From Flavobacteriaceae bacterium YJPT1-3 (GTDB lineage Bacteria; Bacteroidota; Bacteroidia; Flavobacteriales; Flavobacteriaceae), in contig CP123444.1 of assembly GCA_029866965.1 (NCBI GenBank), forward strand, positions 599,501-663,500: a stretch of 64,000 nucleotides of DNA. The letters are read 5' to 3'. The position numbers and the translations under genes are program-made. This document shows positions 3,084 through 49,921 of this stretch, piece after piece. The notes under the pieces are model-generated. The model had not been told where the DNA came from and ran no database searches. It saw nothing but the letters and a program-made list of their open reading frames with translations. Positions within the stretch are counted from its first letter, which is position 1, and each line of letters starts with the position of its first letter.

Positions 3084-5825
3084 TTAAAGATTATAGGTTA
3101 CCGTCCACATCACAATACGCGGCTGGACGAAATACTCGGTATTAGCGATCAAAAAATCATTCACCGAGTTTTGACTGATCACGTCCACATTTAAAACATT
3201 GGTCGCCTGCATCCGGAATTCCCATTTCGAATCAGGCTTTCGATAGAAAAGATTCGCTTCCAGAAAGGAATAGTTGTTATCGATGTTGGTGCTGTCATCA
3301 TCGTCATCATAGTTGTAGTAACTCCAATCCATGCCGAACGTGAATCCCTTGAGAAAGTCCACTTCGAAGTTGGCGAAAGGACGATCGGTAAAAAACGTTC
3401 GATCGGTGATGCCATTGTCTGAATTGGTGACTGAGCGGTTATAGCCCAGCTCTGCATTGAAAGGTCCCTTCAAGTTAGTTTCCGCGCTGAACCGGTAATT
3501 CTGAGAAAGATTTTCGGTCTGACGGTCCTGGCCATTGACGATGTTGTTCAGGTTGGAATAATTTACATTCCCCGAAAGGTTAAGTTTCCATTTTTTAAAG
3601 GTCTTCGACCAACGGGCATTCCCGCCTAGGGTCTCATCCACAAAGTTGGTATTATTGATGGGGGATGCGATCTGGTTGATGCCATTGAATTGGGTGACCG
3701 ATTTGATGGGATCCACCCGCCGCGAATAATTGATGCCGCCAAAAACATTGGTAAAATTGAACATGCTGAAACTAAAATAGTTTAGGCTCAGGTTGTGGTA
3801 GATCGCATTTTCCAACTCCCGATTCCCCCGGAACAAGCGGTTGTAGTTACTGAAAATGAGCCCTTCGGCAAAATTGTTGACATCGGTATACTCGGCATTC
3901 ATCTGATAATTAAAACGCATCGATTCACTCTGCTTAAATTGAGCTACGGCGAAGAAATCAGGCAAGATCATCCATTGATCTGTTGAAGTGATCGATCCCA
4001 GCTGTTCGCTTTCGGTTCGGTAATTATGAAGCGTGAGACCCGGAGTCAGCGTGAATATGCCTGTTTTCACCTTGTAATGCAGCCCCAGAAAGAGGTCACT
4101 GAATTGGAATCGTACCCCATTGGTTAAAGGCAGCGTGTTGCCTTGACCGTCGGGTTCAGAGGCTTCAAGATTCTCCCTATTGCCCTCCAGTAGTTGAAAT
4201 ATGGAGCTGTCGAAATCCTGCCTCGATTGGGTAGTCCCCAAGGTAAAGTTTAGGTTACTCGTTTTATTCAAAACGTAGTAGTAATCGATGGAAGCATCCC
4301 ATTTATTGGTCTTGACATTGCGCTGTTGATTGATGTCGTAGAGCGTCGCATCAGCCAAGGGTAAGGTGCCTACAAAGGGCTGCTCAGAGAGGATCGCCTG
4401 GTATATGGGGTCTTCATCCTGATAGAGGTGCTGAATTTTACCGGCGAAGATGTTGTTCTCATCTAAGGTGTAATAAAGATTGAGGTTTTGATTGATGGAA
4501 AAGGGTTCATTTTCTTTGTTCTCGTCGGTAATGATCTCTTCCGTGTTTTGATACCGTGTGAAGATACTGAGTCCGTCTGAAAATTCGGTTTGCCGGGATT
4601 TTTTGATCAACACATCGTAATCCATCTGAAAATTTATATGAGGTTTAAACACGGTACTCAATTTGACCATCCCCAACTGATTGCGCTGATCGCTATCCTG
4701 CAGGAACTCCTGAGTAAAGGCATCGTTGATATAGGTATTCAGCGAGTTATTGACAAAATTGGTGCGGTTATCGCTTAGAATCGCAAATCCAGACAGATCC
4801 CATTGTTCATTCAGGGTATAGGTAAAATTCCCTGCCAGAAAGTCGGCTTCAATCTCGTTGGCCCGGTTGTTTTGTGTGGTTAAGAATCCTAGTCCGCCGT
4901 CACTCACATTGAATGAGGTTCCGCCTCGAGCGTTGAAATTTCGAAATCCCCCGGTGAAGTTGAAATAATCTCTAAACGTAAAGGGAACTTCCCCGGTATT
5001 GTTAAAGTTAGCGATGATGTTGATGCTCCCTTTCGGGGAATAATAAAAGAGCTTAGGCTTGGCCAGATACCGAAAACCCTCCCCATTGCCCGCCCCTGCA
5101 GTGACGTCACCGAACCAGAAATTCTTTTTGCCTTCTTTGAGCTTGAGGTTAATCGCGATATTGTCCTGATCATTGCCAAGGCCACCCATTTGGGACACTT
5201 CATTGTAATTCTTCAAGACCTCTACTTTTTTTAAGGCGTCTGCGGGTATGTTCTTGGTAGCTAATTTACTGTCGCCATCAAAGAAATCTTTGCCTTCGAT
5301 CATCACCTTAGACACCTGTTGGCCTTCGACCTCGATCTCTCCATCATCAGTCACTTCGATTCCGGGTAGTTTCTTGAGCACATCCCCCAGTTTCCGCTCC
5401 TCCCCATTGGTAAAACTATCGGTATTATAGACGATGGTATCCCCTCTTACTGTGACCGGCATTTCATACACCAGCTCCACATCGTCCAGTTGATTGGGAT
5501 CTTCCAGAAGGATAAAGTCTTTAAAGATTTGCTTGGGACTTTTGTCAGTGATCTCCAAATTCTCTATATGCGGTTTCAGGCCTAAAAAACTCACCTTGAG
5601 CGCATAGGTAGCTCCTCGGGTGAGATCTAGACGATAGCGACCTGATCCATCCGTGATTCCGTAAGACTCCAGGGTGCCTTTCTCCAGATTGGTAGCAATG
5701 ATATTGGCTAATTCCAGTGGGTTACCCACACTGTCCTTAATGGTGCCCGTCAGTTCTACCGACTGGGCAAAAATGATCCCGTGCGATAGGATCACTATCG
5801 TTAGTATAAGCTGTTTAAATTTCAT
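3084..5825 (-). CDS. TonB-dependent-receptor-like outer membrane beta-barrel protein
   Basis: A 913-residue outer membrane protein. It has a signal peptide (about 1-20, ending FAQS), a carboxypeptidase-regulatory-like (CarboxypepD_reg) domain at about 22-110, a plug-like region at about 120-230 (VRGDTIVYNTDSF, LKKLPGIEV, a variant of the plug fold), and a long beta-barrel region with alternating aromatic residues to the C-terminus (ends VTYNL). No clear TonB box is seen after the regulatory domain, so TonB dependence is uncertain. It is the last gene of a four-gene minus-strand operon behind two GLPGLI proteins, an association common in Flavobacteriia. The operon probably answers to the divergent kinase/regulator pair. 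The ligand is unknown. Confidence 0.85.
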   Translation of the reverse strand: MKFKQLILTIVILSHGIIFAQSVELTGTIKDSVGNPLELANIIATNLEKGTLESYGITDGSGRYRLDLTRGATYALKVSFLGLKPHIENLEITDKSPKQIFKDFILLEDPNQLDDVELVYEMPVTVRGDTIVYNTDSFTNGEERKLGDVLKKLPGIEVTDDGEIEVEGQQVSKVMIEGKDFFDGDSKLATKNIPADALKKVEVLKNYNEVSQMGGLGNDQDNIAINLKLKEGKKNFWFGDVTAGAGNGEGFRYLAKPKLFYYSPKGSINIIANFNNTGEVPFTFRDYFNFTGGFRNFNARGGTSFNVSDGGLGFLTTQNNRANEIEADFLAGNFTYTLNEQWDLSGFAILSDNRTNFVNNSLNTYINDAFTQEFLQDSDQRNQLGMVKLSTVFKPHINFQMDYDVLIKKSRQTEFSDGLSIFTRYQNTEEIITDENKENEPFSINQNLNLYYTLDENNIFAGKIQHLYQDEDPIYQAILSEQPFVGTLPLADATLYDINQQRNVKTNKWDASIDYYYVLNKTSNLNFTLGTTQSRQDFDSSIFQLLEGNRENLEASEPDGQGNTLPLTNGVRFQFSDLFLGLHYKVKTGIFTLTPGLTLHNYRTESEQLGSITSTDQWMILPDFFAVAQFKQSESMRFNYQMNAEYTDVNNFAEGLIFSNYNRLFRGNRELENAIYHNLSLNYFSFSMFNFTNVFGGINYSRRVDPIKSVTQFNGINQIASPINNTNFVDETLGGNARWSKTFKKWKLNLSGNVNYSNLNNIVNGQDRQTENLSQNYRFSAETNLKGPFNAELGYNRSVTNSDNGITDRTFFTDRPFANFEVDFLKGFTFGMDWSYYNYDDDDDSTNIDNNYSFLEANLFYRKPDSKWEFRMQATNVLNVDVISQNSVNDFLIANTEYFVQPRIVMWTVTYNL

Positions 5826-5868: not shown

Positions 5869-6711
5869 TCACTGCCCTCTCCGGTTAAAGCCTCCATTCT
5901 GACCGCGACCGCGACCGTATCGCTCCATCATTTCCCGACCTTTTTCCTCTACGATCTCTTGATATTCTTTCCGGCTCACTACTTTTCCTTTCTCCGGTCG
6001 CTCTATGGTAATTTCTGTTTTTGGATTGAGCACCACTTTGGTGCATAGCATGGTTGTATTGGCGGTATTCAGTTCGAGTATTAGTCCGGGTAAGCCACCA
6101 AATTCGTCTGGTCCGTGTTGTACGGGGATCATGGGGGTATACCAGGCCACGATAGTTTCCATTTTTGTAGTGGTGCTATCTTCCACAGGTAGTTCAGATC
6201 GTTGCTGTCTTCTGACAGCGCGTAACTTCTCCCAGGGACTGGCTTCCACGGGACGCTGAGCAACGGCTTTAAACACCGGATACTGACCGATTATTTTGCT
6301 TTCCTTAACCAGCTCCCAATTCAGATTGGATAAGCTATCTTGGATTAAAAAAGTCTTTCCCATCAAGTCATTAGCGCGTGCAAATTCATGGGTTTGCTGA
6401 TTGGTATAGATACCCCCCTGAGCGAAACTTCCACCCCAGCGGCCCATAGCTCCCTGGCCTGGGGCCTCCAGGCGTTCCTCCTCTTTAAAGAATGACTCCT
6501 CCTGAGTAAATGTGAGGGTGTACTCCTTTTCCAGGAAATTTTTCATCCGTTCCATGATTTGCTTTTTACGTTGTTCGCTCATGCCCTGGCCTCCCCAATC
6601 GTCCAAATTGATAGTCGTTTTGGTTTGATAGGTAGCCATTCCGGTGATGTGCTGTGCGTAAGTCGAAAGGGTAAGGAAAAAAATCCCCAATAGTAAGCCT
6701 GTGATTTTCAT
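5869..6711 (-). CDS. GLPGLI family secreted protein (copy 1)
   Basis: A 280-residue exported protein with the family signature GLPGLI (in FGGLPGLILELN, about residue 205) followed by a CTKVVLNP segment. The ATG at 6711 gives a normal signal peptide (MKITGLLLGIFFLTLSTYAQ), so it is preferred over the longer frame, which would need a TTG at 6738. The C-terminus is arginine- and glycine-rich (YGRGRGQNGG). GLPGLI proteins are known only from Bacteroidota and have no established function; they are usually next to TonB-receptor-like genes, as here. The protein is a paralogue of the next gene upstream in the operon (shared AWYTPMIPVQHGPDEFGG-type segment). Confidence 0.9.
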   Translation of the reverse strand: MKITGLLLGIFFLTLSTYAQHITGMATYQTKTTINLDDWGGQGMSEQRKKQIMERMKNFLEKEYTLTFTQEESFFKEEERLEAPGQGAMGRWGGSFAQGGIYTNQQTHEFARANDLMGKTFLIQDSLSNLNWELVKESKIIGQYPVFKAVAQRPVEASPWEKLRAVRRQQRSELPVEDSTTTKMETIVAWYTPMIPVQHGPDEFGGLPGLILELNTANTTMLCTKVVLNPKTEITIERPEKGKVVSRKEYQEIVEEKGREMMERYGRGRGQNGGFNRRGQ

Positions 6712-6794
6712 GTCTTGAAGTTTGGTATTGGACTTCAAGGTACAGGACTGGTTTATACGCCTAACGCTTTTTTAAGAAATATTTAAGAGTTTGA

Positions 6795-7640
6795 TCATCC
6801 CCCGATGCGGATACTGAACGACTTGCTGTCCTTACCCCGCTTTTTGCCTGCGCTGTAGCGTTCCATCATTTCCTTGGCTTTTTCATCTGAAATTTTCAGA
6901 TAGGTTGCCTCATCAACCACTTTACCTTTTTCAGGGGCTTCGAGAACAAGGGGGCCTTCAGGATTCAAAACGATCTTGGTACACATGTACGAAAGATCGC
7001 CACTATTGATCTCTAAAATAAGTCCGGGACAACCCCAATATTGGTCGGGACCATGCTGGAGGGGAATATCCAGCGTATACCAGGCCGTAGTGATGCGCTC
7101 CTCCTTGGTTTCGGAAATCGCCTCATCTCCATCCTCCAGATGCTGGGTGGTGATAGTATCTTTCCGTACAGCCTTAAAGCAGGTATACTGGCCAATATTC
7201 TTGGTCTCATTAATGAATTCCCAGTTGGATTGCTCCAGACTATCCTTGATCAAAAAGACTTTTCCCATCATATCGCTTTGTCTTACGTAGCGCTTTTCTT
7301 TGATATTCTTATACAGTTCATCCTGGTTTCCACTGACTACGATCTTGAATCCGCTGGCTGAAGCCATATCGGGTTTGTCGAGCGTGGCTTCTTCTTTCCA
7401 GAGGGAGGCCTTGTCGTCAAAATTGAGGGTATAGGTTCTTTGGAATTGACGTCTGAGTTGTTCTTGAATGGAGCGTTGCAATTCATCGCCCATGGTACTG
7501 TCCATTTTGATGTCCACTCTCTGTTGCGATTGATATGTAGCCGTACCTTTAAACTGTTGCGCGGTCAGATTGGCTTTCGCGCCCTGCCTGCCGGCAGGCA
7601 GGAAAGCGATCACCAAAAGACTGATCATTAGATTTTTCAT
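6795..7640 (-). CDS. GLPGLI family secreted protein (copy 2), signal peptide interrupted by a palindromic insertion
   Basis: A 281-residue paralogue of the downstream GLPGLI protein, sharing AWYTLDIPLQHGPDQ and CTKIVLNPEGP. The signature is altered to GCPGLI (Leu to Cys). The N-terminus is MKNLMISLLVIAF, then LPAGRQG, then AKANLTAQQ. The seven residues LPAGRQG come from a 21-bp in-frame segment at 7582-7602 holding the palindrome CCTGCCTGCCGGCAGGCAGG. Removing it restores a conventional signal peptide and also restores the 14-mer GCTTTCGCGAAAGC. The inserted proline, glycine, arginine and glutamine fall near the end of the hydrophobic core, so export may be altered. Function is unknown. The gene is in the operon with the 162-residue protein upstream. 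Confidence 0.88.
   Translation of the reverse strand: MKNLMISLLVIAFLPAGRQGAKANLTAQQFKGTATYQSQQRVDIKMDSTMGDELQRSIQEQLRRQFQRTYTLNFDDKASLWKEEATLDKPDMASASGFKIVVSGNQDELYKNIKEKRYVRQSDMMGKVFLIKDSLEQSNWEFINETKNIGQYTCFKAVRKDTITTQHLEDGDEAISETKEERITTAWYTLDIPLQHGPDQYWGCPGLILEINSGDLSYMCTKIVLNPEGPLVLEAPEKGKVVDEATYLKISDEKAKEMMERYSAGKKRGKDSKSFSIRIGG
7582..7602. repeat. 21-bp insertion carrying the 20-bp palindrome CCTGCCTGCCGGCAGGCAGG
   Basis: The perfect palindrome spans 7583-7602, with one extra C at 7582. The left flank is GCTTTCGCG (7573-7581) and the right flank is AAAGC (7603-7607). Excising the 21 bp rejoins the flanks into GCTTTCGCGAAAGC, the 14-mer found intact eight times elsewhere in the window. 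The insertion keeps the reading frame of the GLPGLI gene and adds LPAGRQG. The same 20-bp palindrome occurs twice more next to the tRNA-Gly gene. Confidence 0.9.
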
Positions 7641-8258: not shown

Positions 8259-9869
8259 ATGAACAAAAAGCGATATACCGGTATTCTTTACTTCATTATT
8301 CTGGTCATTGGAGTGACCCTGATCACCCAAATTTATTGGAATTACAAAAACTACCAAGCCGGAAAGCAGCAGCTGATCAATGAAGTACAAATCAGCCTGG
8401 ACCAGGCGGTAGATTCGTATTATGAGATGAAAGCGGCGCAGAATACCTTGGGATTTATTGGAAATCAACTCCCTGACTCTGATATGATCTCCAATCAACT
8501 GCGCCGGTATGAAAATCTATCCGAACGTGGATTTTCCCAAAGTCATACCGTGGCTATCTCCGATTCGTTGAATGATCTTGGTTATTTAAGCATAACCGGG
8601 GCCAACAGTGAACAGATCGACTCCATCCTGGAGGCTAAAAAGGAAGAATTTAATGCTGCTGAGGGTTGGGGCTTGAATATTTATAGTGATTCACCGGTAA
8701 AACAGGAGGGCGATGTTAAATTAGACTCCTCCTCCAACGTATTTAAATTGCTAACCGCCAAGGTGGCGGACAGCAGTCGGCAGGAAGCGATCAAGAACCT
8801 GACCAGCAAAATTGTAATTTCCTTTAGTGATGATCGGCTGGACCTCAATTCGTTGGACAGTTTAGTCGATCAGGAACTGCAACGAAAGCAGATTGATCGT
8901 ATTGACCACAGACTGATCTACCGCGACAACCCCAGGCTGCGTTCTATGGAGAAAAGCAATCAAAAGGTAGATTCTACAGAACAGCAAGCAGATCAGGAAC
9001 ATTATGATCTATATGTGCAATCCAATTCTAACCTCCTGCCCAATACGGGTACGCTCGAATTGGGTTTTGAAAATGTTGAAGGATTGGTGCTGCAGCGAAA
9101 TATGGTAGGTATTGGAATCAGTTTTCTCCTTCTGGCCGCAGTCGTTGCTTGTTTATTGTATCTACTGAAGATCATTCAGGAACAACATAAATTGGCCGAA
9201 ATACGCAATGACTTTATCAGTAACATCACCCATGAATTTAAAACCCCCATGGCTACCATAGGTGTAGCTTTGGAAGGCCTGCAACACTTTAATCAGGAAA
9301 ACGATCCTGAAAAGACCGAAAAATATCTAGGAGTTTCCCGGGATCAATTGGGTAAACTTAACATAATGGTGGAGAAAATTCTGGAGACAGCAACTTTAGA
9401 TAAAGAGCGCCTGCAATTGGATCGTGCTCCGACTTCTATCACCGACCTGTTGGAAAAACTGGTACAGAAACACCAGCAGAATGTACCTGAAGTATCCATT
9501 GAATTTCATCGCCCCGACCATGAGCTTTTCGCAAATTTGGATGTGTTTCATTTTGAGAATGCGGTTGATAATCTGCTGGATAATGCGATCAAATATGGAC
9601 TTCCACCCATCATTGTTCAGCTATCCACAACCAAAGGTCAACTCCTGCTTCAGATAATCGATCAGGGCACCTCACTACAACGGGATCATGCGCAGCGACT
9701 GTTTGAGAAATTTTATCGGGTACCCAAAGGGAATCAACATGACATCAAGGGATTTGGTATCGGCTTGTATTATACCAGGACCATCATTGAGAAACACGGG
9801 GGCAGTATTGAGGTGAAAACACAACCGTCCACTTCCTTCATCATAAAACTTCCTTATGCAGAAAATTAA
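8259..9869 (+). CDS. sensor histidine kinase
   Basis: A 536-residue membrane sensor kinase. It has a TM segment near residues 6-28, a periplasmic sensor region of about 250 residues with no recognised fold, a second TM near 282-304, then a HisKA dimerisation domain with the phospho-acceptor His325 (NITHEFKTP) and an ATPase domain with an N-box (DNLLDNAIKYG) and a G2 box (GFGIGLYYT). It overlaps the response-regulator gene by 14 bp, so the two are translated together. Its divergent neighbour is the GLPGLI/barrel operon, which suggests it monitors the envelope and controls that operon; the signal is unknown. The organisation resembles RprX-type kinases of Bacteroidota. Confidence 0.93.
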   Translation: MNKKRYTGILYFIILVIGVTLITQIYWNYKNYQAGKQQLINEVQISLDQAVDSYYEMKAAQNTLGFIGNQLPDSDMISNQLRRYENLSERGFSQSHTVAISDSLNDLGYLSITGANSEQIDSILEAKKEEFNAAEGWGLNIYSDSPVKQEGDVKLDSSSNVFKLLTAKVADSSRQEAIKNLTSKIVISFSDDRLDLNSLDSLVDQELQRKQIDRIDHRLIYRDNPRLRSMEKSNQKVDSTEQQADQEHYDLYVQSNSNLLPNTGTLELGFENVEGLVLQRNMVGIGISFLLLAAVVACLLYLLKIIQEQHKLAEIRNDFISNITHEFKTPMATIGVALEGLQHFNQENDPEKTEKYLGVSRDQLGKLNIMVEKILETATLDKERLQLDRAPTSITDLLEKLVQKHQQNVPEVSIEFHRPDHELFANLDVFHFENAVDNLLDNAIKYGLPPIIVQLSTTKGQLLLQIIDQGTSLQRDHAQRLFEKFYRVPKGNQHDIKGFGIGLYYTRTIIEKHGGSIEVKTQPSTSFIIKLPYAEN

Positions 9870-16285: not shown

Positions 16286-16813
16286 TTAGCGGATACTCAC
16301 TTCTCTGAGGGGCGTATCGCTTTCGCGAAAGCGCACAACGCATTTGGCTACAATGTCCTTAGCCTCTTCAACATCGCCCCAGCCTCCAACATCCACTTTC
16401 TTTTTCTCCAGGTCTTTATACACCTGAAAAAAGTGCTCGATTTCTTTAATGAGATGGTCATTGAGTTCGTTCAGGTCATTCACCCGACTGGAGATAGGAT
16501 CACTAACCGGTACGCAGATGACCTTTTCATCGGGTCCTTTTTCATCGGCCATGTGGAAAACTCCAATGGGTTTTACCTCGATCACACAACCGGGGAAGGT
16601 AGGTTCTGTAACCAAAACCAATACGTCTAAGGGGTCGCCATCCAGAGCCAAAGTTTCCGGAATAAAACCATAATCGGCCGGATACATCATGGAAGAAAAG
16701 ATCATCCGGTCATAACGAATTTTTTTCAACTCGAAGTCGTATTCATATTTATTTCGGCTTCCTTTGGGGATTTCAATCAGTACGTCAAAACTGTTCACTC
16801 GATCTGCAGTCAT
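16286..16813 (-). CDS. ppa: family I inorganic pyrophosphatase
   Basis: A 175-residue cytoplasmic enzyme that hydrolyses PPi to phosphate. It has the conserved YPADYGFIPET segment (about 61-71) and the metal-binding signature DGDPLDVLV (about 75-83), plus KYEYD near residue 22. Length is normal for bacterial family I enzymes. The gene contains a copy of the 14-bp palindrome at 16319-16332, read as RFRES close to the C-terminus. It is adjacent to the ion-pumping pyrophosphatase, giving the cell both energy-conserving and irreversible PPi removal. Confidence 0.97.
   Translation of the reverse strand: MTADRVNSFDVLIEIPKGSRNKYEYDFELKKIRYDRMIFSSMMYPADYGFIPETLALDGDPLDVLVLVTEPTFPGCVIEVKPIGVFHMADEKGPDEKVICVPVSDPISSRVNDLNELNDHLIKEIEHFFQVYKDLEKKKVDVGGWGDVEEAKDIVAKCVVRFRESDTPLREVSIR
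16319..16332. repeat. GCTTTCGCGAAAGC palindrome, copy 1
   Basis: Perfect 14-bp palindrome inside ppa, encoding RFRES near the C-terminus. Confidence 0.95.
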
Positions 16814-49562: not shown

Positions 49563-49634
49563 CATCCTGTTACAGGCACTTTTTTTATTATAAGCCGGCT
49601 GAGATCCGTTTTGTGGAATCGCCACCGCTTTGGA

Positions 49635-49742
49635 GCGAAAGACGGGATTTGAACCCCTGCCTGCCGGCAGGCAGGCGCGACCTGGGTCGCGTCTTTATAA
49701 CTCAAACTCCCCAATCTCATTATTGAGAAGATCTTGTTTTGA
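49635..49742. repeat. 108-bp repeat, copy 1, with tRNA-Gly fragment and 20-bp palindrome
   Basis: The unit begins with the 3' end of tRNA-Gly (through 49656), then the 20-bp palindrome CCTGCCTGCCGGCAGGCAGG (49656-49675), then a GCGACC-TG-GGTCGC hairpin and a spacer containing CTCATTATTGAG. It is repeated directly at 49743-49850 with one base different (ATTATT / CTTATT). A third partial copy of the start is the true tRNA-Gly gene. Confidence 0.9.
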
Positions 49743-49850
49743 GCGAAAGACGGGATTTGAACCCCTGCCTGCCGGCAGGCAGGCGCGACCTGGGTCGCGT
49801 CTTTATAACTCAAACTCCCCAATCTCCTTATTGAGAAGATCTTGTTTTGA
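49743..49850. repeat. 108-bp repeat, copy 2, with tRNA-Gly fragment and 20-bp palindrome
   Basis: Tandem copy of the preceding unit; its palindrome is at 49764-49783. Relative to the tRNA gene, the fragment has a 20-bp insertion exactly between GAACCC and GCGACC (T-arm), and homology stops a few bases later, so these are broken tRNA copies rather than genes. Confidence 0.9.
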
Positions 49851-49921
49851 GCGAAAGACGGGATTTGAACCCGCGACCCTCACCTTGGCAAGGTGATGCT
49901 CTACCCCTGAGCTACTTTCGC
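49850..49921 (-). tRNA. tRNA-Gly (GCC)
   Basis: On the minus strand, the acceptor GCGAAAG pairs with CTTTCGC. The D-arm is TAGCTCAGGGGTAGAGCA, the anticodon stem TCACC/GGTGA encloses TTGCCAA (anticodon GCC), and the T-arm is GCGGG-TTCAAAT-CCCGT. CCA is not encoded. The 72-nt molecule is complete. The sequence that follows its 3' end is the pair of 108-bp repeats. Confidence 0.95.

Follow-up and report, generated by a model that had tools for sequence, protein, structure and literature searches.

Small dispersed repeats have been described in several groups of bacteria. Rickettsia palindromic elements are about 100–150 bp long and are not known outside Rickettsiales. Families of cyanobacterial small dispersed repeats (SDRs) of 20–27 nt, with nested copies and an association with heptamer repeats, were reportedly described by Elhai and colleagues in 2008; to our knowledge no enzyme is known for the SDR families, nor are they known outside a single cyanobacterial subgroup. 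One unit, SDR5, inserts precisely within the iterated palindrome HIP1 (PMC4390886). The tags GTAG and CGTC define two super-families of REP sequences (PMC3733652). Here we describe a perfect 20-bp palindrome, CCTGCCTGCCGGCAGGCAGG (hereafter the 20-mer), in a flavobacterial genome of 3.16 Mb (a single contig, 99.8% complete), and argue that it belongs with the ‘very small mobile elements’, as a mobile repeat that is self-complementary and codes for nothing. The whole account developed below is given a probability of roughly 0.78, and on that account the 20-mer appears to be among the smallest DNA units able to move.

The 20-mer was found within a gene of the GLPGLI family (TIGR01200, E 1.1e-52; PF09697, E 1.1e-20), which occupies positions 6795–7640 on the minus strand of the window (the whole 64,000-nt stretch of DNA that was analysed) and encodes 281 aa. 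It lies at 7583–7602 and has no strand; its predicted fold on its own is a hairpin with a stem of 8 bp and a loop of 4 nt, at −13.9 kcal/mol for the RNA. One extra base at 7582 (minus strand; C in the window, G on the coding strand) brings the insertion to 21 bp and keeps it in frame. An earlier note on this DNA had claimed that the palindrome and one base separate GCTTTCGCG from AAAGC, and the coordinates agree: GCTTTCGCG is found at 7573–7581 and AAAGC at 7603–7607, and taking out the 21 bp at 7582–7602 rebuilds the palindrome GCTTTCGCGAAAGC exactly, as had been proposed, its interrupted copy (no strand) spanning 7573–7607. On the coding strand the order is GCTTT, 20-mer, G, CGCGAAAGC. Translation of the ORF likewise bears out the claimed in-frame gain of seven residues, LPAGRQG, which sit between IAF and AKA (...LLVIAF-LPAGRQG-AKANLTAQQ) in a putative signal peptide. 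The neighbouring GLPGLI-type (PF09697) paralogue, at 5869–6738 on the minus strand, is without the insertion. Matches to the GLPGLI gene were obtained in 46 of 60 genomes of the family, its own included. An insertion would be refuted, the earlier note had argued, if all relatives shared the seven residues; 19 relatives were fetched from the 45 other matching genomes, and none of the 18 with an N-terminus contained LPAGRQG (L219, which lacks one, was left out). These relatives are best matches at 39–47% identity and are not proven orthologues.

The interrupted sequence had been regarded as a first palindrome into which a second was inserted. Its interruption by the unit stands, but it is not a one-off: GCTTTCGCGAAAGC, a 14-mer, is iterated across the source genome and is a preferred target. 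There are 408 exact copies against none for the reversed control, and 536 against 5 when one mismatch is allowed. The window holds eight intact copies (at 16319, 21574, 27310, 32175, 34288, 51810, 55349 and 58909), six of them in ORFs, where four translate as AFAKA and two as RFRES; the interrupted copy of the GLPGLI gene is read like the former. Exact copies were present in seven of the 60 genomes searched, again with the source genome included, and ran to hundreds in only two, the source genome and another of the same family (G010, 578 copies), in which the single exact 20-mer does not lie within the iterated palindrome. A literature search for GCTTTCGCGAAAGC found no description of it.

Besides the copy at 7583, the 20-mer occurs in the window at 49656 and 49764, and not at all in the shuffled sequence. 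The whole genome contains 17 copies at up to two mismatches, 11 of them exact, and none of the reversed pattern, so that the unit is repeated elsewhere as the earlier note had expected. Merging of tandem and repeat-borne copies, by manual grouping, leaves 13 independent sites. Five of these (L006, which is the GLPGLI site, L441, L011, L003 and L013) lie at the junction GCTTT/(N)CGC of the iterated palindrome, where the slash marks the insertion point. Removal of the unit restores GCTTTCGCGAAAGC exactly at L006 and L441 only; the host at L011 carries one extra base, and those at L003 and L013 are degenerate copies that match GCTTTCGCGAAAGC only partly. Calculated from the half-site density of the window (20 per 64,000), the chance of finding at least four of 13 sites at this junction is 7e-12; the half-site was defined post hoc, with the data already seen. 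A further five sites lie in tRNA fragments, namely the tail of tRNA-Thr (L001/L002), the 5' part of tRNA-Arg (L004/L005), the tail of tRNA-Gly (L007/L008) and the 5' parts of tRNA-Trp (L012) and tRNA-Leu (L440). The remaining sites are a pair of attC-like repeats counted as one (L010/L015), and L009 and L014, which are neither palindrome nor tRNA.

The second copy in the window (49656–49675, no strand) is located inside a tRNA-Gly 3'-end fragment, between GAACC and CGCGACC, and the third (49764–49783, no strand) in a second tandem repeat of that fragment at a spacing of 108 bp. The intact tRNA-Gly(GCC), at 49849–49921 on the minus strand (converted from L007 1694–1766), has in its T arm GAACCCGCGACC, the empty form of both fragments. 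Tandem units of 108–112 bp were observed downstream of tRNA-Gly (window 49633–49799) and of tRNA-Thr (L001/L002), each consisting of a tRNA 3' tail, the 20-mer and a hairpin of tRNA sequence (CGCGACC..GGTCGCG); the unit between tRNA-Thr and a tuf-like gene (EF-Tu by eye) recurs in another genus (L049). These tail units resemble the tyrT tail repeats of E. coli. Elsewhere in the genome, at 3.035–3.048 Mb (L444), there are three attC-like repeats (ACAACAATGGC...CCGAGACCGTTGT; named by eye) that resemble an integron cassette array (L444:1628–1814, 2568–2704 and 5173–5368), two with the 20-mer or a one-mismatch copy and one empty. The same region contains octamer minisatellites, with units close to TTTAGGTG and TTGAGGTG (L444:7762–7933 and 9231–9378).

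All three coding insertions at GCTTT/(N)CGC are 21 bp long and in frame, and both non-coding ones (L003 and L011, where no frame with a start codon and 100 codons spans the insertion) are 20 bp long, which is the pattern that frame selection would leave. The three genes are demonstrably in frame; selection for the reading frame at coding insertions is inferred. In addition to the GLPGLI gene (AF-LPAGRQG-AKA), the unit is found in an ActB-like subunit of alternative complex III (L013; AF-LPAGRQG-ASP), with the same extra G, and in a TrmN-like tRNA methyltransferase (FRE-LPAGRQE-SK), for which the match to NF047853, at 225 bits, is under the cut-off of 350 and relatives were not compared at the site. 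ActB matches were present in 59 of 60 genomes, and none of the 29 relatives fetched from the 58 other matching genomes contained LPAGRQG. The region is a linker of variable length, and the seven residues align to a gap in the solved ActB, 6btm_B. Searches of the literature for the 20-mer, its core and the peptides LPAGRQ, PAGRQG and PAGRQ found no description of the unit or the peptide; matches to LPAGRQ-type peptides concerned unrelated topics (peptide ligands and a kinetochore protein).

What distinguishes a filled site can be read from empty/filled pairs. Eight of 80 portal loci (PF05136) on phage-like contigs have the GGCTCATANCC motif in a tRNA-Met before the portal gene, six of them empty and two filled. 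The empty L311 reads GAGG/TCGCCGG and the filled L300 reads GAGG-(20-mer)-TCGCCGG, a difference of exactly 20 bp in the variable region with neither loss nor duplication at the junction; L331 has the 20-mer and the left junction of L300, with 13 bases missing to the right. In two genomes of the genus Salegentibacter (G100 and G135; L380–L399) there is a dispersed repeat of some 110 bp, present in many copies per genome. From 67 matches in both genomes, 20 fetched regions and four earlier loci were chosen, and 22 of 26 matches were aligned, the four that ended early being left out. The 20-mer or a variant is found in five of the 22 copies and is lacking from 17, eight of which cleanly cross the site; L389 (empty) and L120 (filled) differ by 20 bp. 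All filled copies hold the unit at a single position, so a copy that was already filled has probably been amplified; and as the empty site already has CCTG, the junction is ambiguous by a few bases. The attC-like array of the source genome offers an empty GTGTGCA/CTTGCAAAG (L444:2568) and a filled GTGTGTA-(20-mer)-CTTGCAAAG (L444:1628). The comparison was extended to 166 sites, a set in which near-identical flanks were merged, 30 bases were required on both sides and a site was excluded if its flank held another copy. Once the 20-mer is removed, 12 of these have joined flanks that match a tRNA across the junction (E < 1e-4); the same holds for 10 of 3300 control positions. Of the 12 matches, 11 are gap-free, and nine are to the intact tRNA of their own locus (42 nt at 100% in L110, for example). 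Apart from L331 and the ambiguous Salegentibacter junction, the empty/filled pairs show no target duplication or loss. No movement was observed, and gain rather than loss is inferred from the empty form being the commoner among the fetched copies (GLPGLI and ActB relatives, phage tRNA and Salegentibacter repeat). The proposal that a palindromic unit entered a pre-existing sequence is thus supported by the gene relatives without the unit, by its dispersal in the genome and by pairs that differ by exactly 20 bp.

Features shared by the targets were sought in the 166 sites and in sets of 172 and 169 sites obtained with laxer rules. Of the flanking columns, only the last base before the unit is strongly biased: with both orientations counted, A stands there in 44% of flanks and T in 9%. 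No tetranucleotide is fixed. Direct repeats of 7–8 bp (at most one mismatch) flank 12 of the 166 sites, and 7-bp direct repeats flank 5.9% of the 169 sites against 0.35% in controls; such repeats could reflect target duplication or be tandem heptamers that were there before. When set beside MITEs and insertion sequences, the 20-mer has clean empty sites without duplication and 7–8 bp repeats at a minority of sites; transposase ends were not compared. Perfect stems of at least 5 bp abut the junction at 19 of 166 sites against 7.5 expected, a modest enrichment that concerns a minority of sites. With an ungapped stem score, stems of at least 6 were found at 24 of 172 sites against 5.5% of controls, and there was no overall shift (Mann–Whitney p 0.21). 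The case for a general targeting of hairpin loops is weak, as predicted pairs spanning the junction were not enriched when the 166 sites were folded (mean 8.24 against 8.40 in controls). Junctions in tRNAs, positioned from alignments, fall mostly in the D arm (L004, L052, L054, L064, L088, L095, L144, L153 and L197), and others in the anticodon loop, variable region and T arm. Only open frames were used to judge coding status, and by that measure 41 of 166 sites lie inside frames of at least 300 codons against 54.9% of control positions.

When one genome per species was scanned for exact matches, the 20-mer appeared in at least 116 stretches. By title, the 80 matches listed (stretches, a few of which share one genome) comprise 32 from Patescibacteria, 21 from Bacteroidota, seven from Omnitrophota, five from Nitrospirota, two each from Elusimicrobia and Planctomycetota, one each from the PVC group, Verrucomicrobia, Chloroflexi and WOR-1, and seven from unnamed bacteria; Pseudomonadota, Bacillota and Actinomycetota do not appear among the titles of those 80. 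Viral contigs account for 33 stretches with the exact 20-mer. At least nine phyla, as well as viral contigs, hold the identical sequence, and horizontal spread is inferred. Across 48 genomes picked as carriers, copy number ranges from 1 to 43 per genome (control 0). Seven of 60 genomes from the same and related genera carry the 20-mer; 11 exact copies are in the source genome, and each of the remaining six has a single one. A sister variant, CATGCCTACCGGCAGGCAGG, was seen 14 times in L117, L163 and L199, and suggests that the 20-mer has subfamilies.

A short dispersed hairpin could be a REP/REPIN sequence moved by a RAYT (Y1 tyrosine transposase, PF01797), and Y1_Tnp matches do occur in 38 of the 48 carriers, although the rate in non-carriers was not measured. 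The source genome, however, has no Y1_Tnp match, and neither do carriers G098, G105, G127 and G128, which hold 15, 12, 11 and 11 copies (these assemblies may be incomplete). Around 40 Y1_Tnp genes in carriers (88,667 bases; places picked from the listed matches, mostly stronger ones) the exact 20-mer is absent, with one copy at one mismatch (L438), and some perfect 8-bp hairpin is present in 30 of the 40 neighbourhoods; the unit itself, CCTG...CAGG, bears neither a GTAG nor a CGTC tag. An origin as REP/REPIN is on these grounds largely refuted and very improbable. It is unlikely, in turn, that the 20-mer is a selected functional site that does not move, such as a terminator, a protein-binding site or a DNA-uptake sequence. 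Identity across phyla, a strong hairpin, depletion in long open frames and recurrence of the tRNA-Thr/tuf copy in a second genus would all suit such a site; exact 20-bp filled/empty pairs in phage tRNA and dispersed repeats, and location inside proteins, would not, nor would a copy number that varies so widely among carriers and a presence in so few genomes of the same and related genera, six of them with one copy.

The resemblance of a perfect palindromic 20-mer, present in many metagenome assemblies, to a linker raises the question of a sequencing or assembly artefact. This can practically be dismissed, since the unit is present in a nearly complete single-contig genome and in named isolates (Winogradskyella, Salegentibacter, Longitalea, Aquiflexum and Flavivirga), its protein insertions have a frame-keeping extra base, and diverged and nested copies (L067) exist. 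A local and independent origin each time, by templated (quasi-palindrome) mutation, would fit the subset of sites at centres or edges of inverted repeats and the CCTG already present in the Salegentibacter empty site. As such mutation copies local sequence, it cannot give the same 20 letters at targets as unrelated as GCTTT/CGCG, GAGG/TCGCC and GTGTGCA/CTTGC, and we reject it as scarcely credible.

If the 20-mer is instead a mobile repeat, it must be inserted by a trans-acting machine, because it encodes nothing. Neither a Y1_Tnp (REP-type) transposase nor an RVT_1 (PF00078) reverse transcriptase of the source genome, as now sequenced, is that machine; RVT_1 matches were present in 23 of 48 carriers and absent from the source genome, so a reverse transcriptase is not required as a resident gene. 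Several copies adjoin genes for GIY-YIG nucleases. A GIY-YIG profile built from four proteins adjoining the 20-mer gave 11 matches, nine of them within 300 bp of a 20-mer; with overlapping loci counted once, seven of nine domain copies are near a 20-mer, at six loci (tRNA-Arg and tRNA-Leu of the source genome, L064, L110, L144 and L197), and the other two are more than 1.7 kb away. Since the seeds were taken from 20-mer sites, only L110 and L443 (the tRNA-Leu locus of the source genome) are independent. Pfam confirmed GIY-YIG in L004, L064 and L197. At L004, L064, L110 and L443 a tRNA 5' fragment is followed by the 20-mer or a variant, then the nuclease gene, then the intact tRNA. Three of four viral stretches with a relative of the L197 gene, all except the contig of L197 itself, lack an exact 20-mer, and in one of the three (L447) the gene still adjoins a tRNA-Arg; the link is therefore not obligatory, and a role as sole partner is weakened. 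The small GIY-YIG genes beside tRNA fragments and intact tRNAs (L004, L064, L110 and L443; L144, L197 and L447) look like a tRNA-targeting selfish gene. A tRNA-linked GIY-YIG nuclease is a weak lead for the inserting enzyme, and no enzyme has been identified.

The mobile-repeat account runs as follows. A filled site exceeds its empty counterpart by exactly one 20-nt unit, with target bases neither duplicated nor lost in the clean pairs, and copies in the source genome favour the GCTTT/CGC junction of the iterated palindrome and the arms of tRNA-like sequences; this much is observed, whereas gain of the unit is inferred. In the GLPGLI gene the target would have been an iterated palindrome read as AFAKA, and the unit would have survived there in the form with the extra base because the reading frame was kept; the extra base in coding copies must have a separate explanation. 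Some multiplication may be passive, through amplification of a larger repeat that carries a 20-mer, as inferred from the Salegentibacter family. The likeliest route, inferred on weak evidence, would be insertion at the stem-loop edges of folded single strands, and cutting might be performed, on equally weak inference, by the small tRNA-associated GIY-YIG nucleases that adjoin several copies. A more ambitious reading takes the 20-mer for a cross-phylum 20-bp mobile element, inserted exactly and without duplication at the stem-loop edges of hairpins that are RNA-like or single-stranded (tRNA arms and iterated palindromes), partly carried by phages between Patescibacteria, Bacteroidota and others, and with GIY-YIG nucleases as its cutting partner. 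We consider this doubtful, and the viral GIY-YIG relatives without a 20-mer have lowered our estimate of it a little.

Should unrelated genomes indeed receive a geneless 20-bp unit exactly and repeatedly, the carrier phyla would possess an insertion activity that is explained by neither of the enzyme families tested. The protein insertions and the phage tRNA provide clean before-and-after pairs, with which the movement of very small repeats can be put to a direct test. Stray residues in predicted proteins of these phyla may, in cases not counted here, also be due to LPAGRQ-type peptides.

Compared with known systems, the 20-mer resembles REP/REPIN sequences with their RAYT in being a short dispersed palindromic repeat that is sometimes found within genes, and differs from them in having no tag, no RAYT match in its own genome and no exact copy at 40 RAYT genes. 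The earlier note had likened it to the palindromic elements of Rickettsia. This holds for the in-frame position within proteins, seen here in three genes, but the unit is only 20 bp long and spans phyla, and its closest parallel is cyanobacterial SDR5 in HIP1. The host palindromes have in common that GCTTTCGCGAAAGC, like HIP1 (GCGATCGC), is iterated genome-wide; the two differ in sequence and lineage, and GCTTTCGCGAAAGC is abundant in only two of 60 genomes searched. As with SDR5, the 20-mer is geneless, hairpin-forming and dispersed (17 copies, control 0), and occupies a fixed position in an iterated palindrome (5 of 13 sites); as with SDRs more generally, it has filled and empty sites, a self-nested copy (L067) and 7–8 bp flanking repeats at some sites (12 of 166). 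It departs from SDR5 in its host palindrome, its presence in at least nine phyla, its tRNA-fragment targets and the GIY-YIG genes beside some copies. Descent from SDRs is not shown, SDR sequences not having been compared, and the parallel is one of features; by those features the most fitting label for the 20-mer is that of a very small mobile repeat of the SDR type.
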